DNA from: a virus
Strand: one strand, 5' to 3'
Length of the DNA stretch: 59,048 nt
IMG/VR virus record: IMGVR_UViG_3300025030_000116
Coordinates: 1-59,048 of that record
Below the pieces are notes generated by a model. It was not told the origin of the DNA and did no database searches. It saw nothing but the letters and a program-made list of their open reading frames with translations. Below are positions 300 to 58,559 of this stretch, piece by piece. Position numbers and translations under genes: made by a program. Positions within the stretch are counted from its first letter, which is position 1. Every line of letters starts with the position of its first letter.

Positions 300-983
300 G
301 TTTATCTCCCAGTTTTATCCCACATGCCAAAGCGACAGGTGGGCGGCAGATTGGAGGGTAGTCCTGAAGTGCGTCAGAATATGTCGCAAGTCGTCAAGCG
401 ATCCAAGGAGCTGTTTTTAGCCTTCATATGCCCATCAGCGTCAATGCCACCTGGGACGAGAAGCGCAGATAGCAATCCAACGATGTAGACATCGCATTTC
501 AACAGAGTTGAGGGTGATGCCCATATCCTTGCCTGCCTTGCTCCGAGATCGTGCCTTTAAGCGGCATTTAAAGATTAGATGGCTTTTGCCGTCCCACACC
601 ATCCCCCTCGGGGGGTAAGGGGGGTTGTTTTTATTCTTTTATCTTCTTATGGGTTTGGTTCTGGGTAGCTTTGCGGATAGGTTAGCGTTAGCTATCCCAG
701 TAGGTAACCCAGTAGGTTCCGTTAAATTGACATGAGAACTCCATGTTAACAACTGGTTACGCCTGCTTACCCTGCGGATCACCCCAAAAACACCCCAATT
801 TACCCCCTTCGTCACATCGGATGATCGGTGCATGTTCGTAACCCAGAGCTAACCGACAGCTAACCCAGTTGGTTCTTTACCCAAAGATGCCCCCGGTACC
901 CTTCCCATGACCCCCTTCCCGAAAAATTTTCTTACCCCCGTTTTTCCCTCCAACAATTATTTTGACTGCATTCAACTTTGTTG
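300..983. other. non-coding region with iterons and a small hairpin
   Basis: No convincing gene on either strand; the short frames present lack ribosome binding sites. A CCCCC-TCG-GGGGG hairpin at 603-615 is followed by G- and T-runs and may be a terminator. From about 650 to 876 there are direct repeats related to AACCCAGTAGGT, annotated separately. The stretch ends at the operator-promoter pair that drives thyX. Confidence 0.5.
694..876. repeat. origin-like iterons shared with the initiator gene
   Basis: ATCCCAGTAGGT (694-705) is followed directly by AACCCAGTAGGT (706-717), a 12-base period. AACCCAGTTGGTTC recurs at 862-875, a weaker copy (AACCCAGAGCT) is near 840, and an inverted ACCCAG copy is near 661-667. 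The same core, including an exact AACCCAGTAGG, occurs in phase inside the replication initiator gene (42148-42181). Binding sites for that initiator, or a second origin, are the natural reading; this is inference from shared sequence. Confidence 0.55.
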
Positions 984-1012
984 TTGCAATCATCCAACTT
1001 TGTTGGTAGAAA
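973..1012 (+). promoter_or_regulatory. promoter with two operators upstream of thyX
   Basis: A -35 TTGCAA (984-989), a 17-base spacer and a -10 TAGAAA (1007-1012). Two identical CAACTTTGTTG palindromes at 973-983 and 995-1005 have starts 22 bases apart, about two helical turns. The second lies inside the spacer against the -10 box. A bound protein would block RNA polymerase, so the thyX operon should be silent in a lysogen. Architecture matches the promoter at 22810-22838. Confidence 0.6.
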
Positions 1013-1124
1013 GGTTCCACACGAATCGACACCGTGTTGGTGGGGCCGGGTGAGTTGAATTTTCAGGCAAGGGTGATGGGGCTGTCCCTGATCCGCTTGC
1101 CCGGCATTTTAAGGAAGATGAAGC

Positions 1125-1235
1125 ATGAACGTCTGCAAGAAGTGTCACCCGCTGAAGCGGTTTTTCTGCATCATCCCTTGCCCTGCCGTTAACACCGAGC
1201 CGGATAAGGTTAAAAAGGAGTGGGCAACGACATGA
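1125..1235 (+). CDS. small cysteine-containing protein before thyX
   Basis: A 36-residue frame starting MNVCKKCHPLKRFFC, with a CxxC pair and two more cysteines. AAGGA sits nine bases before the ATG. Its TGA overlaps the thyX ATG in the ATGA arrangement, which suggests translational coupling. The cysteines could bind a metal. A competing 38-residue frame starts at 1076, so the call is moderate. Confidence 0.45.
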   Translation: MNVCKKCHPLKRFFCIIPCPAVNTEPDKVKKEWATT

Positions 1236-1900
1236 AGCTGGTAAAGCCCGGATTCACAATTGACATGGACGGCTTGACCCCGAGCCAGATCCTCACCAAG
1301 CTTGAGCGCATTGGCCGGCTCAGTCATCAGTCAGAGGACAAAATGACCGAGGGCTCCGCCGAGAAGTTCATAAGCAAGTGGGCGATTCAGCACGGGCATG
1401 AAAGCATCCTCCGCCATCACAGCATTACGGTGCGGATCGTCTGCAATCGGGCTGTCTCCCATCAGCTTGTGCGTCACGGCCTGGCTCACTTTCTACAGGA
1501 GTCCCAGCGGTACTGCTGCTACAAGGGGCATGTCACCTTCGTCGTCCCCCAGTGGGCAAACATCGAGTCCGGGCAGTTCACCCGAGAGCAGGACATCAAA
1601 CTGATCCCCCCCTCCAATGGAGCGCGGGTGTGGGTCCGGTCGATGTTCAATGCCGAGGAGTCTTACCACGATCTGCTGGCCTGCGGGCGCCCGGCGGAAG
1701 AGGCGCGGGGAGTTTTGCCAAACGATGCCAAGACCGAGCTTGACCTGACGGCGAACTTGGAGGAGTGGCGCCACATTTTCAAAGCCCGGACGTCCAAACA
1801 CACTGACCCGGCTGCCCGCGAGATCATGGCCCCCATGCTGGACCAGTTCACATATCTGCTGCCGGCCATATTCAGCGACATCATTCCTTTCCGGGGTTAA
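1232..1900 (+). CDS. thyX: FAD-dependent thymidylate synthase (ThyX family)
   Basis: 222 residues. ThyX makes dTMP from dUMP using methylene-tetrahydrofolate, FAD and NADPH, in the cytoplasm. Visible family marks are HESILRHH (56-63) and the signature region RHGLAHFLQESQRY (81-94), which aligns with the classical RHR-x7-S motif but has Gly instead of the third Arg. The ATG at 1232 is preferred because AAGGAG ends at 1220, 11 bases upstream; the alternative GTG at 1220 would overlap the ribosome binding site. First large gene of the operon from the 984 promoter. It presumably raises dTTP supply for phage replication. Confidence 0.88.
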   Translation: MKLVKPGFTIDMDGLTPSQILTKLERIGRLSHQSEDKMTEGSAEKFISKWAIQHGHESILRHHSITVRIVCNRAVSHQLVRHGLAHFLQESQRYCCYKGHVTFVVPQWANIESGQFTREQDIKLIPPSNGARVWVRSMFNAEESYHDLLACGRPAEEARGVLPNDAKTELDLTANLEEWRHIFKARTSKHTDPAAREIMAPMLDQFTYLLPAIFSDIIPFRG

Positions 1901-2010
1901 CCGGGTCCCCGCTCTGCTTCGGCATCGGGCTTGCGGAGTGCATTGTGCCGGCCATTCCGGCAGGCGCTCCAGTCCAGAGACTCACTGGGTTATCAACCGA
2001 GGACGAACCC

Positions 2011-2085
2011 GTGACCTACTGGTGCAGCGGGCAGGAAGCTAGGTCAACCCTTACAATTTATCAATGTCCACGCTGCCCAGGCTAA
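2011..2085 (+). CDS. possible 24-residue zinc-ribbon-like miniprotein
   Basis: GTG start with GAGGA nine bases upstream; the product starts MTYWCSGQEA and ends CPRCPG, giving a CxxC pair plus an isolated Cys. It lies between thyX and the next gene. The gap 1901-2120 otherwise shows only a small GCCGGC/GCAGGC-type hairpin near 1950. Its short length makes this tentative. Confidence 0.3.
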   Translation: MTYWCSGQEARSTLTIYQCPRCPG

Positions 2086-2120
2086 CACGGTGGGTCCAAC
2101 TTTTTAGAGGCAAGAGCCCA

Positions 2121-2498
2121 ATGGAAGCAGAGAAAAAACAAAACCCTTGCTTGGGACAAAAATACAGCACTGCGGTCTTCGCTCCGACCCGTGGCGAGGT
2201 GAAATATCTGGCTCTGAAGATGGTTTCAGTGATTAGAAACAAACGCTTTGAGACTGTTGCTGAAGCTTACAAGCGTAGGTTCCTGTCAACTCTTGAGCAT
2301 ATCGGTCATACACTCGATCCGACGAGCCCGCCATGCACGAATTGCCCGGCTATCACAGTTTATTTTTGTGGGAAATACGCACTTGAGTGTAGGGATTTCC
2401 TCAGATACAGCAACGGTGGGCGTGCTTACGATCCGAATAAAAGGCGAAAGCGTGTCCCGAAAGTTAACACCACATTTGATTCAACGGAGGAATTGTAA
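2121..2498 (+). CDS. hypothetical protein, basic with cysteine pairs
   Basis: 125 residues starting MEAEKKQNPCLGQKY. The middle has helix-forming KRFETVAEAYKRRF, followed by a PPCTNC and a CGKYALEC cluster that could hold a metal, and a Lys/Arg-rich tail. The ATG at 2121 is preceded by GAGG; an in-frame ATG at 2064 would give a longer product with weaker support. Its stop overlaps the next start (TAATG). No family recognised. Confidence 0.6.
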   Translation: MEAEKKQNPCLGQKYSTAVFAPTRGEVKYLALKMVSVIRNKRFETVAEAYKRRFLSTLEHIGHTLDPTSPPCTNCPAITVYFCGKYALECRDFLRYSNGGRAYDPNKRRKRVPKVNTTFDSTEEL

Positions 2499-4639: not shown

Positions 4640-4694
4640 GGCAAGAGAGCCGAACGGGGCTTAAAAAGATCCTACTGACCCAATCCACGATCAA

Positions 4695-36387: not shown

Positions 36388-36390
36388 AAC

Positions 36391-39191: not shown

Positions 39192-39263
39192 TATTTTTTA
39201 CGCTACCATGTGGCGGGGCGGATGACTTAGGCCGTCCGTCCCGCGCAATAGGAGAAAGTTAAC

Positions 39264-39883: not shown

Positions 39884-39893
39884 GGCCCGCAAC

Positions 39894-44940: not shown

Positions 44941-44943
44941 GAT

Positions 44944-45255: not shown

Positions 45256-45279
45256 CAATTCCATCCTAGTTGGTAGAAT
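45244..45279 (+). promoter_or_regulatory. promoter for the HU operon
   Basis: TTGACA (45252-45257), 16-base spacer, TAGAAT (45274-45279). CAATTGTGTTG (45244-45254) overlaps the -35 and a half site TAGTTGG abuts the -10, as in other operator-controlled promoters of this genome. Confidence 0.65.
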
Positions 45280-45318
45280 ATATCAACCTACAATGCAGAC
45301 GAGCAAAGGAGATTTTCA

Positions 45319-45696: not shown

Positions 45697-45720
45697 AACC
45701 CAAAGACCAAAGGAGGCATT

Positions 45721-45999
45721 ATGACAAGGCAAAGTTCGATTGCAGCAGTGGCAGCCACGGCAGGTATCACCCATGCACAGGCCAAAAAGGCCATCAAGGC
45801 GGCGTTTGATCTCGTCCTGACGGATACGTATGCCGGGGAGAAGATCAGCGTTCACGGGTTCGGCACCTTCGAGATGAAGGACGTTAAGGCGAGGAAGGGC
45901 GTCAACCCTCAGACCGGCAAGCCCATCGAGATCGCCGCGAAAAGGACGCTCCGATTCAAGTTCTCCAAGAGCGCCGAGGACAAGATCAACGAGAAGTAG
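45721..45999 (+). CDS. HU/IHF-family DNA-bending protein
   Basis: 92 residues. SIAAVAATAGITHAQAKKAI, ISVHGFGTFEMKDVKARKG and GVNPQTGKPIEIAAKRTLRF are the classical HU/IHF body and beta arm. It bends DNA and may assist recombination, replication initiation or packaging. RBS AAAGGAGG. A perfect 16-base hairpin follows. Confidence 0.92.
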   Translation: MTRQSSIAAVAATAGITHAQAKKAIKAAFDLVLTDTYAGEKISVHGFGTFEMKDVKARKGVNPQTGKPIEIAAKRTLRFKFSKSAEDKINEK

Positions 46000-46004
46000 C
46001 CTAC

Positions 46005-46048
46005 CCCGCTCGACCATTTCCGTGACGTTAAAGAAATGGTCGAGCGGG
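46005..46048 (+). terminator. perfect 16-bp hairpin after the HU gene
   Basis: CCCGCTCGACCATTTC (46005-46020) pairs without mismatch with GAAATGGTCGAGCGGG (46033-46048) around a 12-base loop. There is no T-tract, so it could be a terminator needing help, an RNase III site, or a protein site in DNA. It marks the start of the cassette array. Confidence 0.55.
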
Positions 46049-46077
46049 CGTTAAGCCGGAGAGGGGGAGCGGTGGAC

Positions 46078-46368
46078 ATGACAAGATTGCAGGAATTAGC
46101 ATCGTGCGCTGTGCCAGATTACAAGATGGTATCGGTCGGTTGCGGGGATTTACGCGCGCTCATTGCCGAGGTGGAGCGGCTGACGGCTGAGAACGCCACG
46201 CTCAAAGACATGGAGCTTATCTACTCCAATCGCATGGGCGAACTGGCGCAGCTGTCGGATATCGTTTGCACATGGGTGCTGGAAAATCGAGAGTTGGCGT
46301 ACATGCCCGATGATGTGGGTGAGGCTGCCGACGAAATCATGGAGTACGTTGAGGCGGTGCGGCCATGA
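46078..46368 (+). CDS. cassette gene A1, hypothetical
   Basis: 96 residues from ATG 46078 behind GGGGGAGCGGTGGAC. Helical, with a leucine-zipper-like LRALIAEVERLTAENATLKD. It ends YVEAVRP, and its last 18 bases form the repeated junction also found at 47254 and 47933. The stop overlaps gene B1 by ATGA. Function unknown. Confidence 0.6.
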   Translation: MTRLQELASCAVPDYKMVSVGCGDLRALIAEVERLTAENATLKDMELIYSNRMGELAQLSDIVCTWVLENRELAYMPDDVGEAADEIMEYVEAVRP

Positions 46369-46493
46369 GCGCGCAGGCAATGGTAGGCGTCGGTTTGGCA
46401 ATAACTGCCGGAGTTGCAGCAGCGCGCCATCACCCTGTTGCAGCAACAGTCATCGCGCTTATTGCAGGGATCACTGCTTGCGGTAGGTGGTAG
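46365..46493 (+). CDS. cassette gene B1, small membrane protein
   Basis: 42 residues: MSAQAMVGVGLAITAGVAAA, then HHPVAATVIALIAGITACGR. Two hydrophobic segments predict a hairpin in the inner membrane. The start overlaps gene A1. It ends at the repeated GGTTTAAC block. Function unknown; small membrane proteins in phage accessory loci are often toxins or exclusion factors, which here is only a possibility. Confidence 0.55.
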   Translation: MSAQAMVGVGLAITAGVAAARHHPVAATVIALIAGITACGRW

Positions 46494-46545
46494 GTTTAAC
46501 GGAATCGGGTTGTGGGCGCAGCACACGAACGAGGGGTTAATCGCA

Positions 46546-46917
46546 ATGAGCCTAGTCCACAAGAATTGCCGGATCGCCTACGGATGCACGCGAACGGTCT
46601 GGTTGATTGGTCCTTACGCCTTCAAGTTCCCGGCGGGGGCGGAGTGGCGGCTGTTCCTTTTAGGTCTTCTTGCAAACATGCAGGAACGGTTGTTCAGCCG
46701 CACCGGCTGGCCGGAACTTTGTCCTGTCATTTGGTCAATTCCTGGTGGGTGGCTGGTCGTGATGAAGCGAGTAAGGGTTTTGACAGAAGATGAGTTCGCT
46801 AACCTCGATTTAGAGAAATGGGTTGAGCGGGGGGATTACACGGTGCCCGCTGAAATAAAGCATGATTCATTTGGTTGGCTAGACGGGAAGTTGGTAGCTA
46901 TTGATTACGGCAATTGA
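46546..46917 (+). CDS. cassette gene, conserved phage hypothetical protein
   Basis: 123 residues from ATG 46546. IAYGCTRTVWLIGPYAFKFP then FLLGLLANMQERLFSRTGWP and IWSIPGGWLVVMKRVRVLT give it a mixed alpha/beta look; GPYAFKFP followed by a helix faintly recalls the N-lobe of protein-kinase-like folds. No catalytic motif is clear. Flanked by partial and complete cassette repeats. Confidence 0.55.
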   Translation: MSLVHKNCRIAYGCTRTVWLIGPYAFKFPAGAEWRLFLLGLLANMQERLFSRTGWPELCPVIWSIPGGWLVVMKRVRVLTEDEFANLDLEKWVERGDYTVPAEIKHDSFGWLDGKLVAIDYGN

Positions 46918-46941
46918 GGGGTTAAACCCTGGGAGGGAACG

Positions 46942-47271
46942 GTGGACTTAGCAGAGAGCAAAAGACTACAGGCGGCAATGAGCGATACAGCGACAGACGC
47001 CCACGACTACACCAGCGAGCGCATCAAGAACTCACATGGCTGGCTCATTGCCAAGGTGGAGGAGTTGGCGGAATTGGTAAAAGAAATGGTGACGAGTGCC
47101 GTAAACGTCCAACAGGGCGCACGCGACATGGTCAAGTTTTCCGATGACAGGGCGCTTGAGTACAAGCATGAAGTGGATCGACAGAATGTGTTGATTTTCG
47201 ACCTTCGCCAACAGGTGGAGTTCTGGTCAAAAGACGAACCGGCGGCAGAGGCAGAGGCGGTGCGGCCATGA
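46942..47271 (+). CDS. cassette gene A2, hypothetical coiled-coil protein
   Basis: 109 residues from GTG 46942 with GGGAGGG upstream. Helical throughout (AKVEELAELVKEMVTSAVNV, EVDRQNVLIFDLRQQVEFW). Ends AEAEAVRP in the repeated junction and overlaps gene B2. Unrelated in sequence to A1 and A3 apart from the tail. Confidence 0.6.
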   Translation: MDLAESKRLQAAMSDTATDAHDYTSERIKNSHGWLIAKVEELAELVKEMVTSAVNVQQGARDMVKFSDDRALEYKHEVDRQNVLIFDLRQQVEFWSKDEPAAEAEAVRP

Positions 47272-47513
47272 GCGGAGCGTCAACAGACACGGGCAAAATC
47301 ACGTTTCTCGGGCACAAAGAACAGACGGCCAAGGATTGCGAAGGGGTTGCTGAGATGCTTGTCACTCTCGCCAAGGATGTGCGCGAGGGGAACATGGCAG
47401 CGTTTGAGGGGTTCTGGTTCCAGGGAGGGACAGAGGAAGGCGATGCGCGAATATTGGAACTTCGGGAGCGGTTGCTGCTCCGGTATCTTCACCGTCAAGA
47501 ACAGGTGGTTTAA
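47268..47513 (+). CDS. cassette gene B2, hypothetical
   Basis: 81 residues starting MSGASTDTGKITFLGHKEQT, then helical AEMLVTLAKDVREGNMAAFE and WFQGGTEEGDARILELRERL. The stop TAA lies inside the repeated GGTTTAACGGAATCG block. No family recognised. Confidence 0.55.
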   Translation: MSGASTDTGKITFLGHKEQTAKDCEGVAEMLVTLAKDVREGNMAAFEGFWFQGGTEEGDARILELRERLLLRYLHRQEQVV

Positions 47514-47572
47514 CGGAATCGAGCTGCCACGCGCAGCGGGACCAGCGAGGGGTTAAACCCTGGCGAGGAGGA

Positions 47573-47950
47573 ATGGTGAAGGAAGCAGATTTCAGGAAAG
47601 AGCTTGTAAAAATCATGCCTGGGTATGAGTGGACAATCCACACGACTCCCCGCTGTTCGGTGGGCAGATACCTCAGCGCCACCGGCATTCAGTCGAGCGG
47701 GTTCAACCGACTGTCTACCCTGCATGTGCTGAGGCGGAAATTCGGCAAAGAAGACATGATCGAGTACGAGGTAAAAAGCTCCGGTTATGGCAAAAGGACA
47801 CCGTGGCTGTCCACGGCCACGCGGATCACACTTGCGCAGGCGTTACGTGCTCTGCAAGATCACTACGAGCATATGGCCGCGACCTACGGGGGCCACGCTC
47901 GCGATTTGCGAGATGCACGTAAGGCAGCAGCAGAGGCGGTGCGGCCATGA
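47573..47950 (+). CDS. cassette gene A3, hypothetical
   Basis: 125 residues from ATG 47573; the next codon, GTG 47576, is better spaced from GAGGAGG and may be the real start. MPGYEWTIHTTPRCSVGRYL and FNRLSTLHVLRRKFGKEDMI suggest an alpha/beta fold. It ends AAAEAVRP in the repeated junction. Function unknown. Confidence 0.6.
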   Translation: MVKEADFRKELVKIMPGYEWTIHTTPRCSVGRYLSATGIQSSGFNRLSTLHVLRRKFGKEDMIEYEVKSSGYGKRTPWLSTATRITLAQALRALQDHYEHMAATYGGHARDLRDARKAAAEAVRP

Positions 47951-48171
47951 GCAACGAGGTTTTCCGATTTGGGGCTGAAAGGGTCAGGACTACCGCAGGA
48001 ATAAAGAGGGGTCTGTCATACCAGGATGAACGGGATAGGGTGGCAAAGGCCCACGATTGCTTCGACGGGATCGTGATATTGGACTGGCAGGACAGCGGGA
48101 AGCAGTCACAGTGCAGCATACGCCAGTTTTTAAAGCGGTTCAGTTACCACGGGAACGGCCATTCGGTTTAA
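47947..48171 (+). CDS. cassette gene B3, hypothetical
   Basis: 74 residues starting MSNEVFRFGAERVRTTAGIK, basic at first, then a mixed region (GIVILDWQDSGKQSQCSIRQ). The stop lies in a GGTTTAAC, the partial cassette repeat. No family recognised. Confidence 0.55.
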   Translation: MSNEVFRFGAERVRTTAGIKRGLSYQDERDRVAKAHDCFDGIVILDWQDSGKQSQCSIRQFLKRFSYHGNGHSV

Positions 48172-48177
48172 CTACTT

Positions 48178-48294
48178 ATTATCCCAGTAACCGGCGGGAT
48201 ATCCGCCTAGGGCGATCAACTGGATTGCCGTGTGATTGCCGCCGGTTGACCGGGATAATGAAAATGCAAATGCCGCCAGGGCGGTCAACTAAGA
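48178..48294 (+). repeat. long inverted repeat with internal direct repeat
   Basis: ATTATCCCAGTAACCGGCGG (48178-48197) is nearly complementary to 48239-48259 (one mismatch, one bulge), with a ~41-base loop. The loop contains CCGCCTAGGGCGATCAACT and, after the stem, GCCGCCAGGGCGGTCAACT recurs (about 48272-48290). This could be a structured RNA, a protein-binding element or the remains of a small mobile element. It ends just before the ribosome binding site of the next gene. Confidence 0.5.
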
Positions 48295-48306
48295 AGGAGG
48301 TAGGGC

Positions 48307-48525
48307 ATGTTTTGGGGAGGCGCAGCGTTTGGGGCGTTTGTGGTGCTGGCATTGATCGCGGCGGGATTGGGTGTCATTTCCTGGCAGGTTGCCAAGGAGA
48401 GGAGGAAGGAAGAGAAAGAACCGCTGAACCACAAGAAGTATTGGGAGGAGAGCCTTGAGGTTCAGAGCCGGAATGCCGAGACGTTCGAGCAGATCCTGAC
48501 TGTGCTCGACAACTGGAAACGGTGA
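48307..48525 (+). CDS. small membrane protein
   Basis: 72 residues with AAGGAGGTAGGGC upstream. One membrane helix (AFGAFVVLALIAAGLGVISW) followed by a charged cytoplasmic tail (KERRKEEKEPLNHKKYWEES). Last rightward gene before the bidirectional terminator. Function unknown. Confidence 0.6.
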   Translation: MFWGGAAFGAFVVLALIAAGLGVISWQVAKERRKEEKEPLNHKKYWEESLEVQSRNAETFEQILTVLDNWKR

Positions 48526-48550
48526 CGCTATGAAATAGCTCCAGACGCAA

Positions 48551-48592
48551 GAAAGCCCCCGAGTCATGTTGACCTCGGGGGCTTTTCTTTTG
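48551..48592. terminator. bidirectional terminator between converging arms
   Basis: GAAAGCCCCCGAG (48551-48563) pairs with CTCGGGGGCTTTTC (48574-48587), with T-rich sequence on the right and an A-rich flank on the left. It separates rightward early genes from the leftward lipoprotein gene ending at 48598. Confidence 0.85.
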
Positions 48593-48597
48593 CCTGC

Positions 48598-48936
48598 TTA
48601 GAAATCAGGTAAAGGGAAAGCCAGAATTCCACGGATCGCCGTAACCTGGCCCGCTGTCCGCAGCGTCCTACCCGTGTAACTCCCATCGACTACGTTGTTG
48701 TGTATTCCGACATCCACCGGGGCGTTAACGGGCGCCTGAAGGCTCGTATAGGCAGCAAAGACCCCCCTGGTAGTTGTCACGGTCCAGTTACTAGAACCGT
48801 CGATCCAATCAGCCGCCTTCGCAGATCCAACGTAAACCCCTGCGTCTCGATACTCGGTTATGACCGGGGCGTCGTTCCCCCCTCCCTCTCCGCATCCGGC
48901 AACGAGTAGTAAAGCAGTGCAAATAATTTTCTTCAT
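48598..48936 (-). CDS. lipoprotein, lysogenic-conversion (moron) candidate
   Basis: 112 residues. A signal peptide MKKIICTALLLVAGC with a clean lipobox (LVAGC), then a Gly/Asp-rich mature start and beta-rich body (NWTVTTTRGVFAAYT). It has its own promoter and lies between two terminators, the classic moron layout. Phage lipoproteins of this sort can change the host surface or block superinfection; that role is inferred. Confidence 0.65.
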   Translation of the reverse strand: MKKIICTALLLVAGCGEGGGNDAPVITEYRDAGVYVGSAKAADWIDGSSNWTVTTTRGVFAAYTSLQAPVNAPVDVGIHNNVVDGSYTGRTLRTAGQVTAIRGILAFPLPDF

Positions 48937-50180: not shown

Positions 50181-50181
50181 G

Positions 50182-50955
50182 TTAACTCTCCTTCTTGAGT
50201 AACAGCTTCTTACCCTGGCAGCTCCGGCACTGGGACTCCCTGTGCGCTTCAAACTCTTGGTAGCCCGTAGTGTCGCAGTCGTAGTTGTCGCGGATGTCTC
50301 GGGCGAAGGCTTCCAACTCCTCTATGCGGTCCTCGGCGGTCGTCAGCTTCTCACACACCGTGAACACGTCCGCACTGTGCGCGTTGCACTCCAAGCGGTA
50401 GGTTTCCAACAGGCGGTTGTGGTTCTTCCGCCGTTCCTTGATGTCGGACACCAGCCCTTTGATCTTCGTCAGAACTTCACTCCAGGGTGCCGACTCCTCC
50501 ATGCCAAGCTCTTTCTTGATGAGGTTGAAGAAGTCGGCGGCCTGCTGCGTGTTGTCCTTCGCGCACTGCTTCCAGTAGGCCACCCCCCGATGCAACTCCT
50601 CCTTCTGCATGGCGAGGTTCTGGATGACCCTTTCCACTCCCCGGCGCTCCTTGTCCCGCGCCTCGACGTAGAGCTGCTTATTCGCCTCGTTAAGTCGAGC
50701 CTCAAGCTCATCCATCTTGGCTGCCGCATTGCGGGCGTTGACTGCCGCTGAGCGGTGAGCCTCGTCAATGGCTTCCTGCCGGCACTGTTTCAATGCCCGA
50801 ATCTGGCAGTCGCGGTAGCCGATGGTCGTTTTCAGCTCCTCTATCTCGTTTTCCAGTAACTCGTTGTCCCAAGGGTTCTTGCCGATGTAGAAGCCGATGC
50901 TCGGCCTGTGGTCGTTGAGCCATTTCACTGTCACTGCCTTAGCCAGTCTCTTCAT
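50182..50955 (-). CDS. long coiled-coil protein with a C-terminal CxxC
   Basis: 257 residues. Most of it is helical with heptad-like spacing (NELLENEIEELKTTIGYRDC, ARLNEANKQLYVEARDKERR). The C-terminus has CRSCQGKK, like a zinc-ribbon fragment. GTTAAC immediately precedes the ATG on its strand. No family recognised. Confidence 0.6.
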   Translation of the reverse strand: MKRLAKAVTVKWLNDHRPSIGFYIGKNPWDNELLENEIEELKTTIGYRDCQIRALKQCRQEAIDEAHRSAAVNARNAAAKMDELEARLNEANKQLYVEARDKERRGVERVIQNLAMQKEELHRGVAYWKQCAKDNTQQAADFFNLIKKELGMEESAPWSEVLTKIKGLVSDIKERRKNHNRLLETYRLECNAHSADVFTVCEKLTTAEDRIEELEAFARDIRDNYDCDTTGYQEFEAHRESQCRSCQGKKLLLKKES

Positions 50956-51161
50956 GTTAACGCCTCCTCCCCATCCTGCTCGGCGTCAAAGTGCATTTCC
51001 GATGTCGCCACGCACTCCTCAAAGATGATCCCCATTTCCGCGCACAGGTGCCGCAAGTCGGTGAGCAAGTCCGTGATGTCTGCGGTCAGGTCTTCCTGGT
51101 CGTATTCTCCCAGCGCCCTTGCTGCCCGCTCGGATCTTCCTTCGTTTGATAGATCGCTCAT
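50952..51161 (-). CDS. small acidic hypothetical protein
   Basis: 69 residues, MSDLSNEGRSERAARALGEY, then DLTADITDLLTDLRHLCAEM. Helical and acidic. GTTAAC separates its ribosome binding site (AAAGGGGAGC) from ATG. ATGA overlap with the coiled-coil gene. Confidence 0.55.
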   Translation of the reverse strand: MSDLSNEGRSERAARALGEYDQEDLTADITDLLTDLRHLCAEMGIIFEECVATSEMHFDAEQDGEEALT

Positions 51162-51162
51162 G

Positions 51163-51534
51163 TTAACGCTCCCCTTTTTGGACTTCCTGGGCAATGAGGT
51201 ATCCGGTCCAGAGCAGCATAAGCAGGCTCCAAAACATCCACCCCGTGCGGGCCATCAATAACTGGTCCCGTAGGTTGACAAGCTGTAATGCGAAAATACC
51301 GTACAACGGACCCACCCACGTTGCTTTGACCTTATTCCACGCGATAACGACTCGCACCGGACCAGCTATCAAGTGCAGCAGTTTGAGTCTGGGAAATTCT
51401 GCCTGCGTGTGGACATGCGCGGAAAGCAGATAGGTAGCTTTGAAGCCGTGGTCATCCTTGATCCACCATGCCGGATCTTTCCAGTTTGCTACGTTGGCGG
51501 ATATTGCGTGATTCTTCGTCGTGAGCAACTTCAT
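51163..51534 (-). CDS. membrane protein
   Basis: 123 residues. The soluble N-terminus (MKLLTTKNHAISANVANWKD) is followed by a long hydrophobic region (FPRLKLLHLIAGPVRVVIAW, then MFWSLLMLLWTGYLIAQEV) giving probably two membrane helices. GAGGAGTTAAC precedes the ATG. Function unknown. Confidence 0.58.
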   Translation of the reverse strand: MKLLTTKNHAISANVANWKDPAWWIKDDHGFKATYLLSAHVHTQAEFPRLKLLHLIAGPVRVVIAWNKVKATWVGPLYGIFALQLVNLRDQLLMARTGWMFWSLLMLLWTGYLIAQEVQKGER

Positions 51535-51561
51535 GTTAACTCCTCCTCTTAAGATAAAATT

Positions 51562-53373: not shown

Positions 53374-53395
53374 CCCCCAAGCGTTAACCTGGGGG
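53374..53395 (-). terminator. right-arm hairpin with GTTAAC loop
   Basis: CCCCCA (53374-53379) pairs with TGGGGG (53390-53395) around AGCGTTAACC. A weaker outer stem TTGATG/CATCAA (53357-53362, 53408-53413) is present. It separates the Nmad5-like gene from the radical SAM gene and belongs to a hairpin family in this arm. Confidence 0.6.
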
Positions 53396-53409
53396 CGATC
53401 CTTCAAGCA

Positions 53410-53967
53410 TCAAGCCTTTGCGGACGCAATGAGCGCGTTGAGTTCTGCCGGTATGATGGCGGGCAAGGTGTTGATGAGTTGCCCCATGCCTTCGGTAAAC
53501 TCGGCACTCTCCGGCCAAACCTCGTTTAGCTTCTTGACGGTGTTAACGGATGCCAGTAATGATGAAACCTTGTTTCTCAGCGCGTGCTTCTCTTTCTCGA
53601 TGGCCTGCTCTTTCAGTTGGGTAGCGTAAAAGGCGATGGTCTTAGCGTCATCATTCTCATAGTTGGCAGCGGTATGGCGGCTGTGGTTGTTGGAAACCCT
53701 GCGCTGGCTGGAAAAATTGACGTAAACATATCCGGTACTGGACGCCCCAAACTGAACCCGCAAGCCTGATGTATCCGGCAGGTATCCGGCAGGGAGCGCC
53801 TCCATTTTCTGTTTAAGCGGGCCAGAGTAAAGGCTGTCGTAAACCATGTCGCCAAGAGCTGTTTTCTCGGCAGCCACCTCTGCGTCCCTGGCGGCGAAGG
53901 CGGACGTGATAACGCGGTTCCTGATAAGAGTCCTTCTTTCTTCGGTCAGTCTGATTGGTGCGCTCAT
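53410..53967 (-). CDS. Nmad5-like protein (nucleotide-modification-associated domain)
   Basis: 185 residues. MSAPIRLTEERRTLIRNRVI, then helices with charged residues, ALGDMVYDSLYSGPLKQKME, LPAGYLPDT, and a beta region (GYVYVNFSSQRRVS). The pattern agrees with Nmad5, a domain linked bioinformatically to phage nucleotide modification. Its exact activity is not known. Located by the radical SAM gene, which suggests the two may belong to one pathway. Family call moderate. Confidence 0.5.
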   Translation of the reverse strand: MSAPIRLTEERRTLIRNRVITSAFAARDAEVAAEKTALGDMVYDSLYSGPLKQKMEALPAGYLPDTSGLRVQFGASSTGYVYVNFSSQRRVSNNHSRHTAANYENDDAKTIAFYATQLKEQAIEKEKHALRNKVSSLLASVNTVKKLNEVWPESAEFTEGMGQLINTLPAIIPAELNALIASAKA

Positions 53968-54025
53968 GCGGTGAATCTCCTTTTTGTGGTAGTGGGCGCC
54001 AGATCTCTCCAGCGCCCCGTTAAGG

Positions 54026-54175
54026 TTAGAACAGACAAAGTTGAGCCATTACAGCTTTCACCCTGGATACGGGTGCTTTCGATTGCGTTTTAGGCGGTGC
54101 GTCCAGGCGGTGCGCGGGGTAAATTCTGATTTTGTCGTCTTCAGGTGAATACGATGCCGAATGTGGTGTTAACAT
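54026..54175 (-). CDS. small hypothetical protein
   Basis: 49 residues, MLTPHSASYSPEDDKIRIYP at the start, basic afterwards (PKTQSKAPVSRVKAVM). ACAGACAGGAGGATGGACC lies before the ATG, one of the repeated leaders. GTTAAC is codons 2-3. Function unknown; the interval 53968-54025 shows nothing else. Confidence 0.45.
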   Translation of the reverse strand: MLTPHSASYSPEDDKIRIYPAHRLDAPPKTQSKAPVSRVKAVMAQLCLF

Positions 54176-54193
54176 GGTCCATCCTCCTGTCTG

Positions 54194-54322
54194 TTACGGT
54201 AGGCGCCTTGGGTTCAGCCTTGGCGCTGTCTGGTTCCGTTCGTGCTCCTCGATAATGTTCTTGATGCTCTGCGGCGTGTAGTGCTCGATGATCTCCGTCA
54301 ACGTCATTCTGCTTCGCGCCAT
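54194..54322 (-). CDS. small hypothetical protein
   Basis: 42 residues, MARSRMTLTEIIEHYTPQSI then KNIIEEHERNQTAPRLNPRR. A single helix pair with a basic tail. It overlaps the membrane miniprotein gene (54304-54378) by 19 bases in another frame, indicating coupling. Confidence 0.5.
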   Translation of the reverse strand: MARSRMTLTEIIEHYTPQSIKNIIEEHERNQTAPRLNPRRLP

Positions 54323-54378
54323 ACAATCACCGCCCCGATTAGAATTGAGATACCTACCACCGCCCAACCTGTTAACAT
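54304..54378 (-). CDS. 24-residue membrane miniprotein
   Basis: MLTGWAVVGISILIGAVIVW followed by REAE: one membrane helix with a short charged end. GGACAGGAGGAAACCA precedes the ATG, a variant of the repeated leader. GTTAAC overlaps the first codons. Small membrane peptides at this place might act on the host envelope; that is speculative. Confidence 0.5.
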   Translation of the reverse strand: MLTGWAVVGISILIGAVIVWREAE

Positions 54379-54415
54379 TGGTTTCCTCCTGTCCTGTCTG
54401 GTTGACTGCTCAAGC

Positions 54416-54445
54416 GAAGGGCCAAGCTTGTTAACTTGGCCCTTC
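54416..54445 (-). terminator. right-arm hairpin with GTTAAC loop
   Basis: GAAGGGCCAAG (54416-54426) pairs perfectly with CTTGGCCCTTC (54435-54445) around CTTGTTAA. On the minus strand it is preceded by TGATAG (54450-54445), a motif shared with three other hairpins of this arm. It follows the 54462 gene. Confidence 0.7.
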
Positions 54446-54461
54446 TATCAGCGGTCAACGA

Positions 54462-54884
54462 TTAATCCTGTTTCTTGTCCTCGTAAAATTTGCCGTCCTC
54501 GTCCACGCGATACCAGACGCCAGGCTTAAGCTTGCCGTCACTGCCATCGCCGCACCCGGTTTCTGCGCACCGCATTTCCGCCCGTTCCTCAGCCTTGTTC
54601 CACCATGCCATCGCAATGCAGCCATACTTCCCTGCTTTGGCGCGACTATTGAGACCGGCGCATACTGCGGGTGAGCAGTCGCCCGAGGTGGCCGCGCTGC
54701 TGGAGTAGCCCGAGGTGGCCGCGCTGCTGCAGTCGCCCGAGGTGGCCGCGCTGCTGGAGTAGCCCGAGGTGGCCGCGCTGCTGGAGTAGCCCGAGGTGGC
54801 CGCGCTGCTGGAGTAGCCCGAGGTGGGTCTGGTCTTATCCGTTTCTTGTGGCGCTTCCGTTACCGTTGTCGCTTGCGTCGTCAT
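54462..54884 (-). CDS. TSGYSSSAA tandem-repeat protein
   Basis: 140 residues. A Thr-rich start is followed by six 9-residue repeats of SGYSSSAAT/SGDCSSAAT, then CAGLNSRAKAGKYGCIAMAW, a segment conserved in other phage and bacterial proteins with this repeat. Such repeats likely build a solenoid-like beta structure. The acidic C-terminus (DEDGKFYEDKKQD) is unique here. Function unknown; repeat number may vary between isolates. Confidence 0.6.
   Translation of the reverse strand: MTTQATTVTEAPQETDKTRPTSGYSSSAATSGYSSSAATSGYSSSAATSGDCSSAATSGYSSSAATSGDCSPAVCAGLNSRAKAGKYGCIAMAWWNKAEERAEMRCAETGCGDGSDGKLKPGVWYRVDEDGKFYEDKKQD
54676..54830. repeat. 27-bp tandem repeats in the TSGYSSSAA gene
   Basis: About six near-identical 27-base units containing GCCCGAGGTGGCCGCGCTGC, differing only at the Tyr/Asp-Cys codons. 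They lie in frame with the gene and are not interrupted by unique spacers, so they are a coding minisatellite rather than CRISPR. They are prone to slippage. Confidence 0.85.
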
Positions 54885-54997
54885 TGCACTTCCTCCTTGT
54901 TGTTGGTCCTGCGAGTTAACAGCATAATTTCAATCAAGACGTAGATCACGCCAATGATGAAAAGCCGTGCCTGTATCCAGTTGGTTGCAGCGTCCAC
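54881..54997 (-). CDS. small membrane protein
   Basis: 38 residues from GTG 54997: MDAATNWIQARLFIIGVIYV then LIEIMLLTRRTNNKEEVQ, one membrane helix and a basic cytoplasmic end. GGGGGAAT precedes it and the start overlaps the upstream stop. ATGA overlap with the repeat protein gene. Confidence 0.52.
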   Translation of the reverse strand: MDAATNWIQARLFIIGVIYVLIEIMLLTRRTNNKEEVQ

Positions 54998-55284
54998 TAT
55001 TCCCCCTTGGCTTTGGCGATCTTTGCTTGTGCGGTGAGAACGGCATCGAGAGTAAGCCCCGTTACCCCTCCGTGGCACTGGAGACATTCAATCAGGGTTT
55101 CCAGCGCGGACAGCAGTTCCGGTGCGGCGACGATCAGGGCGGCGTTAGCTTTTCCCTCATCAAGACGAAAGTGTGACAAGTCACGCACTACGGCTACGGC
55201 CCGGCCCGAACCAAATACTGTGCATTCTTGGTTTCCGTGTCCCATTGCTTCCCACGGTCCCGGTGTGTGTTTGGTGTTGCTCAT
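54997..55284 (-). CDS. conserved phage hypothetical protein (HTPGPW type)
   Basis: 95 residues. MSNTKHTPGPWEAMGHGNQE then KANAALIVAAPELLSALETL: the HTPGPW start and AxLIxAAPELL motif recur in a widespread phage protein of unknown function. Helical C-terminal half. Transcribed with the membrane miniprotein that follows. Confidence 0.6.
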   Translation of the reverse strand: MSNTKHTPGPWEAMGHGNQECTVFGSGRAVAVVRDLSHFRLDEGKANAALIVAAPELLSALETLIECLQCHGGVTGLTLDAVLTAQAKIAKAKGE

Positions 55285-55297
55285 GGTGTCCCCCTGG

Positions 55298-55396
55298 CTA
55301 GATGGCGAAAATGACCTTATGGCCCTTGTTCCTGATGCTCTGCAATTCCTTCGCGGTGACGGTGTAGCGCCTGTCTTTGACGATGATCCGATACAT
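55298..55396 (-). CDS. 32-residue hypothetical protein
   Basis: MYRIIVKDRRYTVTAKELQS then IRNKGHKVIFAI, a compact alpha/beta pattern. The leader ACAGACAGGAGGATTAACC precedes the ATG with perfect spacing, so translation is likely in spite of its small size. No family recognised. Confidence 0.5.
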   Translation of the reverse strand: MYRIIVKDRRYTVTAKELQSIRNKGHKVIFAI

Positions 55397-55440
55397 GGTT
55401 AATCCTCCTGTCTGTTGGTTGATTGAAGCGTGAAGCGATA

Positions 55441-55463
55441 CCGCCAAGCTGTTAACTTGGCGG
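55441..55463 (-). terminator. right-arm hairpin with GTTAAC loop
   Basis: CCGCCAAG (55441-55448) pairs with CTTGGCGG (55456-55463) around CTGTTAA. On the minus strand TGATAG (55471-55466) precedes it. It follows the VWA-like gene stop by about 12 bases. Confidence 0.65.
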
Positions 55464-55475: not shown

Positions 55476-56306
55476 TCAATATGGGTCTGTCGGGTTGTCG
55501 ATAGTGGTCAATCTGGCTGCCTGCTCCTCAACCCACCGGGCGCTCCCCTCTGGTGTGCTGAAGACTGCCAGACCGCTTGCAGCATAGGCGGCGGGGATGT
55601 AAAGCCCGTATTCCTTTTGCTCCTCCTGGCTCATGTTGTCGGGTGCTCCGTATCTCCCGCCCCGGTTGTTGTAGTTTCGTTCCAGGACGGCGAAGGTTAA
55701 GCGGCGTAACCATGCCGGATGTGCCAGGGCAAAAGAAATTGAGTCAATCGACAGCGGCGACATCCCAAAGCTAACAAGCATTTCCTGGCGTTTATATTCC
55801 CCAGCGTCCGCGCTCCATACCCCCACGGTTAACTCAACGATGTTTGTAGGGTCGCGTTGTAGCGTGTCGATCAAGGCAACAATGGCGGCGCCTCGGTTGT
55901 AAATCTGTTGGACCGGAATTGAGCCCGAATAGTCCGCGGCGACAGCGATTCTAACCACTCGCTTTGCAGTAACCTCTGTGGGGCGCATCCAGCATTCCGG
56001 TAAGCCTTCGACCACGGAGCCCACGTCGAAAAAATCACCCTCAACGTCCCATTGATACTCAAGATGTTTCTCTGTCTGCGCCTTCTCGATTTCCCTTAGC
56101 CGGTCGGAAACGCTTGACGCTGCCGCCGTCCATCCGTGGGTGATAAGTCGAACCATCTCGCCCCAGCTTTTGCAGCCGGTGTCGTTCTCCGTTTCATGCT
56201 GAGAGTTGCAATACCTCAAGTCCGCCGTGTCACCTATCCATTCCATTACGTCTGTGATGCTGTCAAACTCCTGTCTGATAAAACCAAGTGCTTTTGTCTC
56301 TTTCAT
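55476..56306 (-). CDS. VWA-like protein paired with the AAA+ ATPase
   Basis: 276 residues from ATG 56306 behind GGGGGAG. The centre has VRIAVAADYSGSIPVQQIYN (119-138), with D125-S127-S129 as a MIDAS-like DxSxS motif, then a helix (RGAAIVALIDTLQ) and a further strand, as in von Willebrand A domains. The N-terminus (ALGFIRQEFDSITDVMEWIG) is typical of phage proteins of this type. Adjacent to a MoxR/CobS-like ATPase, forming a probable chaperone or remodelling pair. Substrate unknown. Confidence 0.6.
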   Translation of the reverse strand: MKETKALGFIRQEFDSITDVMEWIGDTADLRYCNSQHETENDTGCKSWGEMVRLITHGWTAAASSVSDRLREIEKAQTEKHLEYQWDVEGDFFDVGSVVEGLPECWMRPTEVTAKRVVRIAVAADYSGSIPVQQIYNRGAAIVALIDTLQRDPTNIVELTVGVWSADAGEYKRQEMLVSFGMSPLSIDSISFALAHPAWLRRLTFAVLERNYNNRGGRYGAPDNMSQEEQKEYGLYIPAAYAASGLAVFSTPEGSARWVEEQAARLTTIDNPTDPY

Positions 56307-56341
56307 AGTCTCCCCCGGTAAGATTGAAAGTTGAAACGACC

Positions 56342-56370
56342 GGCACAAAGTATAATGTTAACTTTGTGCC
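56342..56370 (-). terminator. right-arm hairpin with GTTAAC
   Basis: GGCACAAAGT (56342-56351) pairs with ACTTTGTGCC (56361-56370) around ATAATGTTA. TGATAG (minus, about 56378-56373) precedes it. It lies between the AAA+ ATPase gene and the VWA-like gene, so the two could be transcribed together with attenuation. Confidence 0.65.
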
Positions 56371-56387
56371 GCCTATCATCGTTCTAT

Positions 56388-57668
56388 CTATGCGGCCCAC
56401 TTCATTGCTGTTCCTGTTGCGTTCTGTATCTTGGTTTTAATGTCCGCGCTAATGCCTTTCCAAATAATCATGTTTTCAACTTCATCCTGTGAGAAACCAG
56501 CTTTTAACAGCTTTGCACCCTTGTAACTTGCGCGGGGACTGATAACCATGCGCTCTTTCAAGTCAAAAGCTGCTTTACGGTACATCTGCACCCGTCTGCA
56601 CCACTGGTCGTTTCCAGCCAGTAGCCGCTCTAGCTCTTCGTCATAGTCAAAATCGACAACTGCAAAGCGGTCCAGGCTGGCGGCGTCTAGCTGGTTGCGG
56701 CCTACATACTGCCGGTCGGCGCCTCTCCCGTAGGTGTTCATGGCACAGACGCAAACGAAGTCGGCGTTAACTTCAATCATCCCGTCCGGGAAGGCTGCGA
56801 GGCTGTTTGAAAGGATCGCGTTTAAGATGGTCAGCACGTTGGCGTTGCCTGCGTCCGCTTCGTCTAGGAGGAAAACCCCGCCATACTCCACGGCGTCCCT
56901 TAGCTGCGTCCGGTTGTATTTGCCGTGGGCGTCGATGAAGCCTAAGAGGTCGGTCTTTGTCGTCTGCTGTCCGACACTGATGCAGTAAAACTTCAACCCC
57001 ATTGCCTCGGCTGCCTGATGCGTTGCGTGGGTCTTTCCAGATCCAGCCGGACCGACTAGCATGTAATGCTCACGGGCTGCGATGATCTTGCAAAGCGTGG
57101 GGAACATCTTGTGTTGCACTCCTGCCTTGATAACTTCCTTGCCAGGGATGACAACCTCAAAGCGGCGGGTATTGCTGTCGATAACTTCCTTGACGATCTT
57201 TCTAACCCGTTCCTCGTCAAACACAGCCACGACCGGCGTTGCTCCCGCTGACCCCGTATCTATCCATGTCCCGTTGTTGATGTAGTCGGTAAGCTGTGCG
57301 CGGGTCCATTTGGTTCTAAGGTCCGTTGTGGGTAGCCCTGCCGCTTTCGCCTTGTCCGCTGCCGCCTTCCGCAACTCTTGCACGCTGGCCTGGCTCACCT
57401 CGTCGCTGCTCATGTCCTCGCTCCCCTCGATTGCTTCCGTCTCTTCATTGAATGTTGTGATAACCAGATGGGCCTCTCTCGCTCCGTCTGCCAGTCCAGC
57501 GTTGTAGGTGTAAAACTTCTCCGCTTTGTCCTTACCAACAACGCTTGGCTTCCAGTGCTCCCCGCTCCAGTGCGTATCTGTCAGATACCGCTTTTCCCTG
57601 TCGTTCTCCGCCTCGGCTACCCAATAAGGGAGCCCCTTCTTCTTGCTGGTAAATTTCACGATCTTCAT
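56388..57668 (-). CDS. MoxR/CobS-type AAA+ ATPase
   Basis: 426 residues. Walker A GPAGSGKT (206-213), Walker B VFLLDEAD (265-272), sensor-1 Asn in CAMNTYGRG (around 311) and an Arg finger in LDAASLDRF (around 334) are intact. The N-terminal 140 residues are unrelated and charged, including a SAP-like TKWTRAQLTDYI (about 119-130). MoxR-family enzymes work with VWA partners to remodel proteins or insert metals. RBS GGTAGGAGGATGCAGCC; the upstream CAACCAACTTGGTAGG resembles the phage operator. Confidence 0.82.
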   Translation of the reverse strand: MKIVKFTSKKKGLPYWVAEAENDREKRYLTDTHWSGEHWKPSVVGKDKAEKFYTYNAGLADGAREAHLVITTFNEETEAIEGSEDMSSDEVSQASVQELRKAAADKAKAAGLPTTDLRTKWTRAQLTDYINNGTWIDTGSAGATPVVAVFDEERVRKIVKEVIDSNTRRFEVVIPGKEVIKAGVQHKMFPTLCKIIAAREHYMLVGPAGSGKTHATHQAAEAMGLKFYCISVGQQTTKTDLLGFIDAHGKYNRTQLRDAVEYGGVFLLDEADAGNANVLTILNAILSNSLAAFPDGMIEVNADFVCVCAMNTYGRGADRQYVGRNQLDAASLDRFAVVDFDYDEELERLLAGNDQWCRRVQMYRKAAFDLKERMVISPRASYKGAKLLKAGFSQDEVENMIIWKGISADIKTKIQNATGTAMKWAA

Positions 57669-57713
57669 GGCTGCATCCTCCTACCAAGTTGGTTGACATT
57701 GAAAGGCTCGATA

Positions 57714-57743
57714 AACCCGCCGGACCTTTCAGCCTGGCGGGTT
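57714..57743 (-). terminator. right-arm hairpin before the AAA+ gene
   Basis: AACCCGCC (57714-57721) pairs with GGCGGGTT (57736-57743) around a 14-base loop. It has the same position after a stop (57755) as other right-arm hairpins but lacks TGATAG and GTTAAC. It precedes the AAA+ leader. Confidence 0.55.
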
Positions 57744-57754
57744 GCTCCATCCTT

Positions 57755-57856
57755 TCAAGCTGTCATTGCCTCGCGCATCATGGCGCAGTATTCGTGAGTT
57801 AACAGCAAGCCCTCTTCCATAAAATCCTCAACTTCAGCGATTGTGACCTTTTCCAT
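57755..57856 (-). CDS. 33-residue acidic hypothetical protein
   Basis: MEKVTIAEVEDFMEEGLLLT then HEYCAMMREAMTA, helical and acidic. The leader CAGACAGGGGGAACTAGAC precedes ATG. GTTAAC is part of codons Leu-Thr. First gene of the leftward arm after the promoter at 58122. No family recognised. Confidence 0.5.
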   Translation of the reverse strand: MEKVTIAEVEDFMEEGLLLTHEYCAMMREAMTA

Positions 57857-57899
57857 GTCTAGTTCCCCCTGTCTGCTTGTGGTTGGCTGCAAGTCGATA

Positions 57900-57927
57900 A
57901 GCGCCGAAGCTTTTACACCTCGGCGCT
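57900..57927 (-). terminator. right-arm hairpin in the leader
   Basis: AGCGCCGA (57900-57907) pairs with TCGGCGCT (57920-57927). TGATAG precedes it on the minus strand (57930-57925). It is between the promoter at 58122 and the first leftward gene, so it is placed as an attenuator rather than after a gene. Confidence 0.55.
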
Positions 57928-57930
57928 ATC

Positions 57931-58261
57931 ATCTCGATTCCTACCTGTCTGTCTGTTCTCACCCTGTCACGGTGCCCTATCGCTTGTCCCCTTCGCCCTG
58001 GTAACTCCGCTCACCTCATTGACGGTATGCCGTCCTCGTTGGGCCTGCTGGCTGTGGGGGTCAACGCTATTCAGTTGTCAAAGATCCGGTTCCTGCGGCG
58101 CTGTGCCAACCACGCAAAACAACCTTAAACGAGTTAACGCAACTTTGCAAGAAGTTTTGTTCAACAAAGTAGGATTTTTATTCGATGAAATCTAAGACTT
58201 CGATAAGCTGCTAAATTGTTTGCACTCTCTACCTAAAATATATACTGAAGAGGAGTATATA
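57931..58261. promoter_or_regulatory. leader and promoter region of the leftward arm
   Basis: No gene is visible. On the minus strand TTGCAA (58150-58145), 17-base spacer and TAAGGT (58127-58122) form a promoter with GTTAAC in its spacer; CAACAAAGTAG (58162-58172), a degenerate operator, is just upstream. TATATACT-gaagagg-AGTATATA (58239-58261) is a perfect inverted repeat in A+T-rich DNA, a possible binding site. An ACAGACAGACAGG leader relative is near 57940. Confidence 0.55.
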
Positions 58262-58559
58262 CTATACATAAAAGACCTGTCTCTCCGAGTCCTTTATACC
58301 TGCCTTGTGGTTGATGGAAGGGAAAAGAGATAGAAAGGGTTCGCGGTCGGCGTGCCTCGGGCCTTTTTCGCATGGCGTGAAATCGTGATCGGTCAGGGCG
58401 TCGGCTGCCCGGTCAATCCAAGTTAACTTGCTGCCCGATGCCTGCCAGAATGCCCGAATTGCACCCCTTTTGCCTGGCCTTGTCCCCTTTTCCGTCCCCC
58501 TTCGCCTTGCTCCCCCTCTCAAGTACCTGTTATTCATCAAGTTAACTCGGCACAGCAAA
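58262..58559. other. phage right end, no convincing gene
   Basis: Open leftward frames exist but none has a ribosome binding site or credible composition. It carries GTTAAC at 58433 and 58541 and a CTTGTCCCCTTTTCCGTCCC-like block similar to DNA at 34981-35015 near attP. Somewhere near 58545-58563 the sequence changes to G+C-rich bacterial DNA. Confidence 0.5.

Follow-up and report, generated by a model that had tools for sequence, protein, structure and literature searches.

The palindromic hexamer GTTAAC was present at 81 sites in the 59,048-bp virus record IMGVR_UViG_3300025030_000116 of IMG/VR (G+C 55.5%), which was analysed over its full length and is referred to below as the window, and the chances were judged about even that GTTAAC is the core of a two-fold-symmetric recognition site for a putative DNA protein on the phage's own genome. 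The strict core, the symmetric flanks, and the even spacing of the sites together pointed to a two-fold reader and suggested that genome coverage, not particular genes, would be under selection.

The exact count agreed with a sequence-only reading of the window, which had reported as many sites from 745 to 58,541 (Table 1). That reading had put the G+C content at ~57%, above the measured value, and had derived ~10 expected sites and thus an eight-fold excess from it; the excess proved real, with 11.1 sites expected from base composition, but the first-order Markov model (dinucleotides) gave 7.6, making the excess about ten-fold. Third- and fourth-order models gave 25.3 and 69.1 sites, respectively, because these models contain sub-words of GTTAAC itself. 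GTTAAC ranked first among all hexamers of the window (z = 26.6), and the top hexamer not overlapping it reached z = 8.1. Equal enrichment of many hexamers, which the sequence-only reading had named as evidence that would count against it, was not observed: GGCGCC was the second most enriched palindrome (48 vs 28.0 expected), and no other palindrome was enriched like GTTAAC. The other 63 palindromic hexamers pooled to 0.30 of expectation, in line with the earlier remark that phages avoid such words; 13 of the 64 had no copy at all, and all 64 together gave 347 copies vs 905 expected. The window contained 164 TTAA tetramers, 81 of them as G-TTAA-C, with every other context represented at most 12 times.

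Within the 70 window genes, hand-picked from the open reading frames (ORFs) with guidance from matches, 57 sites were counted: 33 were read as GTT-AAC (Val-Asn) and 23 as xxG-TTA-ACx, so that GTTAAC accounted for 23 of the 81 TTA codons in these genes. Compared to these 57 sites, 16.0 ± 3.7 (maximum 28) were obtained by synonymous codon resampling and 17.2 ± 3.4 (maximum 26) when synonymous codons were permuted within each gene (300 replicates each), far short of the ~80 sites that a codon-constrained model had been expected to reach if the earlier reading was wrong. A further excess was found outside genes, 25 of the 81 sites being not wholly within a listed gene, where length alone predicts ~11 (binomial P 7e-5). 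The earlier claim that selection acts on the DNA word, not on the protein, was thus borne out by the synonymous nulls and by the flank bias described below.

Relatives were collected as loci by scanning viral contigs with terminase, portal, capsid, and ATPase and, once, genome contigs, several of these scans being limited to the best 80 matches; two further scans yielded no locus, and another gave only a record already known. Of the loci, 459 were 3 kb or longer, including overlapping pieces of the same records, and the threshold for an excess was an observed count (O) of at least 4 with a ratio to expectation (O/E) of at least 3. The threshold was passed by 31 of the 459 loci. A spread-out excess was displayed by L003, L095, L096, L183, G073, G074, G011, G076, G299, G300, and C46, the last being a contig of a Geobacteraceae metagenome-assembled genome (MAG); C46 and G011 were counted as one phage because 21 of the 22 site spacings of C46 were common to both. 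Eleven distinct enriched records, including the window, were thereby recognised, and five of them were fragments (L003, L095, L183, and G300, <10 kb; G074, 14 kb). The long enriched records had 100 vs 10.3 (G073), 81 vs 11.7 (G011), 46 vs 9.0 (G076), and, in 31.9 kb, 45 vs 7.0 expected sites (G299); the long non-enriched relatives had 1 vs 8.5 (59-kb G002), 3 vs 6.1 (G077), 13 vs 9.2 (G078), 6 vs 4.3 (G079), and 10 vs 7.2 (G081). The trait was regarded as discrete, since the remaining loci pooled to 0.52-0.93 of expectation. L402 passed the threshold with only four sites, and L421, L440, and L445 passed it with local clusters that lacked the flank rule and were set apart as a different thing.

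On the trees, 4 label changes were needed for terminase (23 rows, 7 enriched), 5 for portal (31, 8), and 5 for capsid (25, 7), and starred branches forced at least 1, 2, and 3 changes, respectively; short non-enriched rows (e.g., L174, L175, and L178, with ~0.5 sites expected) were weak witnesses, and L001 was borderline (2 vs 0.6). Judging from these trees, the trait is patchy and not that of one clade. In G299, found together with G300 by using the window ATPase as query, phmmer (E 1e-4) detected nothing matching the window terminase, portal, or capsid; its own proteins fell into different PHROG families (phrog_3717/phrog_2 for the terminase, phrog_64 for the portal, and phrog_247 for the head) and included a tape measure protein, with RecE, RecT, a MoxR-type ATPase, and DUF7192 in common with the window; this structurally unrelated phage displayed both the excess and the flank rule at +1/+2.

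In the window's group, the consensus around the core was CSRH-GTTAAC-DYSG, a palindrome in which the core was perfect and the flank preferences were symmetric. The core was strict: GTTAAC reached 5-18x expectation in the enriched records, far above every one-mismatch word. Such words stood at 0.85-1.23x in the window, except GTCAAC (2.0x) and GGTAAC (1.5x); elsewhere, GTCAAC was at 1.75-2.1x in G073, G011, and G076 and at 1.4x in the non-enriched G002, GATAAC was at 1.2-2.3x across the window, G073, G011, and G076 (1.5-2.3x in the last three) and at 1.7x in G002, and TTTAAC, CTTAAC, and GATAAC were at 1.6-2.1x in G299. Flanks were pooled over 320 sites (640 sides) from eight enriched records, with one-mismatch words of the same genomes as control: C was found at +1 in 8% (p 2e-16), a pyrimidine at +2 in 79% (p 6e-34), S (C/G) at +3 in 70% (p 1.5e-7), and G at +4 in 40% (p 7.5e-5). 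The +2 pyrimidine was kept in every enriched record having enough sites, and the bias was also seen at noncoding sites of the window; it was found neither in non-enriched phages (72 sides) nor in host-family DNA (74 sides).

The sites were spaced more evenly than expected by chance. Among 259 gaps pooled over the window, G073, and G011, 36 were shorter than 200 bp vs 68 expected, 53 were 600-800 bp vs 27 expected, and 13 exceeded 1.5 kb vs 26 expected; the gamma shape was 2.07 for the window, 1.69 for G073, and 1.67 for G011, with null 95% ranges near 0.8-1.3 and 0 of 500 nulls as high. The result was unchanged when the null was restricted to candidate positions at most one or two mismatches away from the word. 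Evenness was not attributed to gene length, because it held inside single giant genes (coefficient of variation, CV, 0.35-0.57 in six genes with 3-20 gaps each, small samples biasing the CV low). Pair counts displayed exclusion below ~200-300 bp and no longer period beyond it. Single sites turned over while density persisted: L003 (76% identical) retained 5 of 9 window sites, whereas only 25% of hexamers overall and none of 24 other palindromes were retained, with GTCAAC in the partner at 3 of the 7 unshared sites, and in eight core genes 4 of 9, 2 of 14, and 0 of 15 window sites were kept in G073, G011, and G076, respectively.

The likely host was assigned through one MAG contig, namely the G011/C46 phage in a 5.9-Mb Geobacteraceae MAG whose binning may be wrong. 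That MAG contained 708 GTTAAC, or ~120 per Mb vs 152 expected from a sample, and none of 60 host-family genomes exceeded ~173 per Mb, compared to 1,372 per Mb in the window; in 57 of the 60, which differ in G+C, the count was below that of the reversed-word control. Sampled stretches of five genomes had 20 vs 13.3, 7 vs 8.9, 3 vs 4.6, 5 vs 6.2, and 5 vs 3.5 expected sites, the first being chosen on contigs known to carry sites. Ten other terminase loci of the host family had 0 sites (~5.2 expected), as did four portal relatives in the class (~2.7 expected). Enrichment in the host chromosome, which the sequence-only reading had wished to see checked, was thus absent from all 60 genomes, and a host-wide iterated palindrome was rejected on this indirect host assignment.

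A putative sequence-specific two-fold protein would, on the proposed mechanism, recognise CSRH-GTTAAC-DYSG on phage DNA, and selection would maintain about one site per 0.6-0.7 kb where codons permit, close pairs (< ~200 bp) being redundant or harmful and long gaps tending to fill; we infer that such a protein would bind at the sites and act by coverage, as distributed roadblocks or anchors. In its most likely version, the protein would either silence or insulate phage transcription, as a direction-independent counterpart of the stoperators of mycobacteriophages, or have an architectural role; the factor would be carried along with the phages, not the host. It was considered possible, at somewhat less than an even chance, that a phage-borne marking or nucleoprotein system is involved, in which one palindrome, placed in codons and gaps alike at 80-100 places, its density kept by selection in several lineages of one phage group and in at least one structurally unrelated phage, would be read by a putative phage protein and would set phage DNA apart from host DNA.

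Several observations weigh against a dedicated binding protein: (i) six-base strictness is also typical of methyltransferases; (ii) the saturating repair ratchet proposed for HIP1, as described in PMC4390886, would likewise yield even spacing; (iii) G076 flanks had the +2 pyrimidine (74%) and partly +3, with G favoured at +1 and no bias at +4, and G299 flanks had A/T at +1 (87%) and a pyrimidine at +2 (83%), with T-rich +3/+4 where the outer rule failed; (iv) evenness was not significant in G076 alone (P 0.05), and one 4-kb gap occurred in the window (P 0.012 under the even model); (v) neither an integrase match nor a counterpart of the 154-aa protein next to the window integrase was found in G011, so a simple lysogeny-repressor account is strained; and (vi) no gene family cleanly followed the GTTAAC excess among the compared records. 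From the G076 and G299 flanks, the inner flank is general and the outer flank specific to the window's group.

A binding protein was ranked above a methylation mark mainly because of the flank preference. The latter, the main rival and a strong one though judged less likely, would have a host-strain or unrecognised phage methyltransferase modify GTTAAC at about every kilobase, for instance to direct mismatch repair to one strand, a role proposed for HIP1, or to label the DNA as self. It would suit the strict six-base palindromic core, it has a precedent in HIP1 (about one per 1000 nt, with palindromic extensions and a ratchet ending once every base is near a site, according to PMC4390886), and PMC11460718 describes, from Burkholderiaceae, a methyltransferase that places 6mA in GTWWAC, a pattern that includes GTTAAC; however, the other GTWWAC words were not enriched (GTATAC 3 vs 3.6; GTAAAC 13 vs 15.3), and the likely host genomes had no excess. 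The phage methyltransferase suggested by the sequence-only reading was not found among the window ORFs scanned, and the host was not searched for one. Homologues of the DarB-like giant protein of the window in G073, G011, G076, and the non-enriched G002 carried an N6-methylase plus helicase segment, which had no BLAST match in the window version; this segment was rejected as the cause, since it did not track the trait.

Co-option of a host protein, by which the hosts of the enriched phages would share one GTTAAC-binding protein and the word would be rare in their chromosomes by neutral chance, was held unlikely. The patchy distribution on the trees is compatible with host jumps, and the G011 phage sits in a Geobacteraceae MAG; against this, the other (pro)phage terminase loci of the host family lacked GTTAAC, and the non-enriched G078 and G079 matched the tetranucleotide signature of the family (0.77-0.87) at least as well as the enriched phages, G299 reaching only 0.34-0.48. 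A by-product of codon pairs, amino acids, or mutation, arising without selection on the word, was hardly credible: the excesses of GTCAAC, a synonymous neighbour, and of GATAAC lean that way, but the synonymous nulls fell far below the genic count, many sites were not wholly genic, codon usage does not create flank bias or evenness, and relatives of similar composition contained 1-13 sites.

Candidates for the putative reader were compared between enriched and non-enriched records. The HU/IHF-like protein (45721-45999) occurred in the window, G073, and G011 but also in the non-enriched G081; the 154-aa protein occurred in the window, G073, and G076 but also in G081; ribbon-helix-helix proteins occurred in both kinds of phages; and the tandem helix-turn-helix protein (40318-40698) was restricted to the window and G073. 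The MoxR ATPase and DUF7192 protein were the sole pair present in all five long enriched records (window, G073, G011, G076, and G299) but were rejected as a trait marker, being also found in two of six non-enriched records (G002 and G081); the link is biased, because that ATPase had served as the query that retrieved G299 and G300, and four trait changes were still needed on the tree of 83 ATPase rows. A 95-aa family (54997-55284) was present in the window, G073, G011, and G076 and in none of the six non-enriched records; it was set aside because it was not found in G299 and had no DNA-binding sign.

Compared to known systems, the sites would, by analogy, be most like the highly iterated palindromes (HIPs) of cyanobacteria in function. 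HIP1 (GCGATCGC) and its variants, as described in PMC4390886, share with GTTAAC a short palindrome far over expectation at about one per kb, palindrome-keeping extensions, a single variant per genome, and saturated-looking spacing; in density, in palindromic extension, and in the evenness of spacing, the earlier likeness to HIP1 is supported. The window likewise displayed over-representation against Markov models. Unlike HIP1, a feature of cell genomes in that account, GTTAAC was in excess in phages and not in the tested likely host chromosomes, the word was a six-base core, and the window ORFs scanned yielded no cognate methyltransferase. For Cluster A mycobacteriophages, stoperators are described (PMC6550527, PMC9283540) as 13-14 bp, without dyad symmetry, numbering 20-30 in a genome, following the direction of transcription, and mostly located in short intergenic spaces; the likeness is that a site specific to the phage recurs at many scattered places in a genome of comparable size, whereas the long podovirus-like records had 46-100 palindromic sites, mostly intragenic, rather than asymmetric, transcription-oriented ones. 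The SPbeta element, likewise repeated in one phage genome, is described in PMC10516654 as a 15-bp motif at about ten promoter regions and a proved site of one phage DNA-binding protein, the repressor MrpR; in that description it is neither genome-wide nor intragenic. Start-associated sequences (SAS) of Cluster K mycobacteriophages are described as asymmetric and tied to gene starts (PMC3203893); six of the 81 window sites stood between a Shine-Dalgarno-like stretch and an ATG, while 75 were away from such gene starts, and the same placement was rare elsewhere (two in G073, one in G011). No report of GTTAAC hyper-abundance in phages was found in a non-exhaustive literature search.

Table 1. Positions of the GTTAAC sites and of associated features in the window
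Feature	Positions	Strand	Remark
All 81 GTTAAC sites, first base each	745, 1188, 1896, 2463, 3148, 4159, 4762, 4967, 5897, 6164, 7169, 7854, 8233, 8778, 9046, 9265, 10015, 10628, 12275, 13346, 13636, 14799, 15207, 16080, 16254, 18456, 18887, 20166, 20822, 21270, 22562, 23087, 23183, 23430, 24090, 24862, 25141, 26705, 27614, 28022, 28939, 30415, 31295, 32617, 33274, 33942, 34755, 35570, 36158, 37907, 39258, 39935, 40703, 41523, 42575, 42980, 44339, 44537, 44716, 48724, 49013, 50181, 50956, 51162, 51535, 51937, 53091, 53383, 53542, 54168, 54371, 54430, 54915, 55451, 55828, 56357, 56766, 57798, 58133, 58422, 58541		Span 745..58546; exact count
Giant protein, DarB-like region and InPase domain	26276-33118	+	
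Integrase and adjacent 154-aa protein	35080..36855	-	154-aa protein at 36391-36855
Two sites between a purine-rich Shine-Dalgarno-like stretch and ATG	39258, 39935 (39258..39940)	+	
Longest site-free stretch	44716..48729		Gap of 4,008 bp; P 0.25 if sites are placed at random, 0.012 with the fitted even-spacing model
Four sites directly before ATG starts	50181, 50956, 51162, 51535 (50181..51540)	-	Same placement after a Shine-Dalgarno-like stretch
ORF with an HNH/endonuclease VII-like part fused to an AlpA-type regulator	51562-52206	-	
Three sites in loops of hairpin-like inverted repeats between genes	53383, 54430, 55451 (53383..55456)		Flanks judged by eye
Nmad5 (nucleotide-modification-associated domain 5)	53410-53967	-	E 2e-22; homologue in G076
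DUF7192 protein and MoxR/AAA_5-type ATPase	55476..57668	-	DUF7192 protein 55476-56348; ATPase 56388-57668

The window had matches to terminase, portal, capsid, and internal virion protein and, for replication and recombination, to RecE, RecT, SSB, and primase-helicase; cultured relatives were distant (terminase identity 27-32% among 30 listed of 221 matching records). The phage is probably temperate, given its integrase and the neighbouring 154-aa protein, and Nmad5 makes DNA base modification genes possible in these phages. The true start of the ORF with the AlpA-type regulator may lie further downstream, making it shorter, because site 51937 directly precedes an internal ATG. The longest gap (44716-48724) contained small ORFs, most of which had no homologue in the phages used for comparison, plus the HU/IHF-like gene, and was perhaps recently acquired.

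Other iterated or clustered words were noted in the same records. Local GTTAAC clusters, mostly noncoding and with other flanks, were present in L421 (G301; 4518-5298), L416, L440, and L445; these clusters (spacings of 21, 49, and 33 bp in G301) were iteron- or operator-like and lay in other phages with a MoxR ATPase, and two of three 21-bp site pairs in G299 resembled heptad-coding repeats by eye. Palindromes other than GTTAAC stood at 0.18-0.51 of expectation in most enriched records, a strong avoidance not shared by G076 (0.71) and G299 (0.82), at 0.48-0.90 in the long non-enriched relatives, and at 0.84-0.92 in host-family samples. CAGCTG was in excess in 20 loci (distant, many of them marine-type, terminase or capsid relatives), e.g., 46 vs 7.5 in L135, and was also high in a Marinobacterium chromosome stretch, possibly reflecting codon usage or another iterated word; AGTACT was in excess, with few counts, in high-GC relatives.

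The cause of hyper-abundant short palindromes such as HIP1 is an open question in organisms whose genomes cannot easily be rewritten as a whole; the present case, in which a phage of 59 kb has 81 sites, relatives have one, and the consensus is defined, makes the question testable. Should a phage protein read these sites, it would give viruses a new means of organising, silencing, or labelling their DNA as against that of the host.

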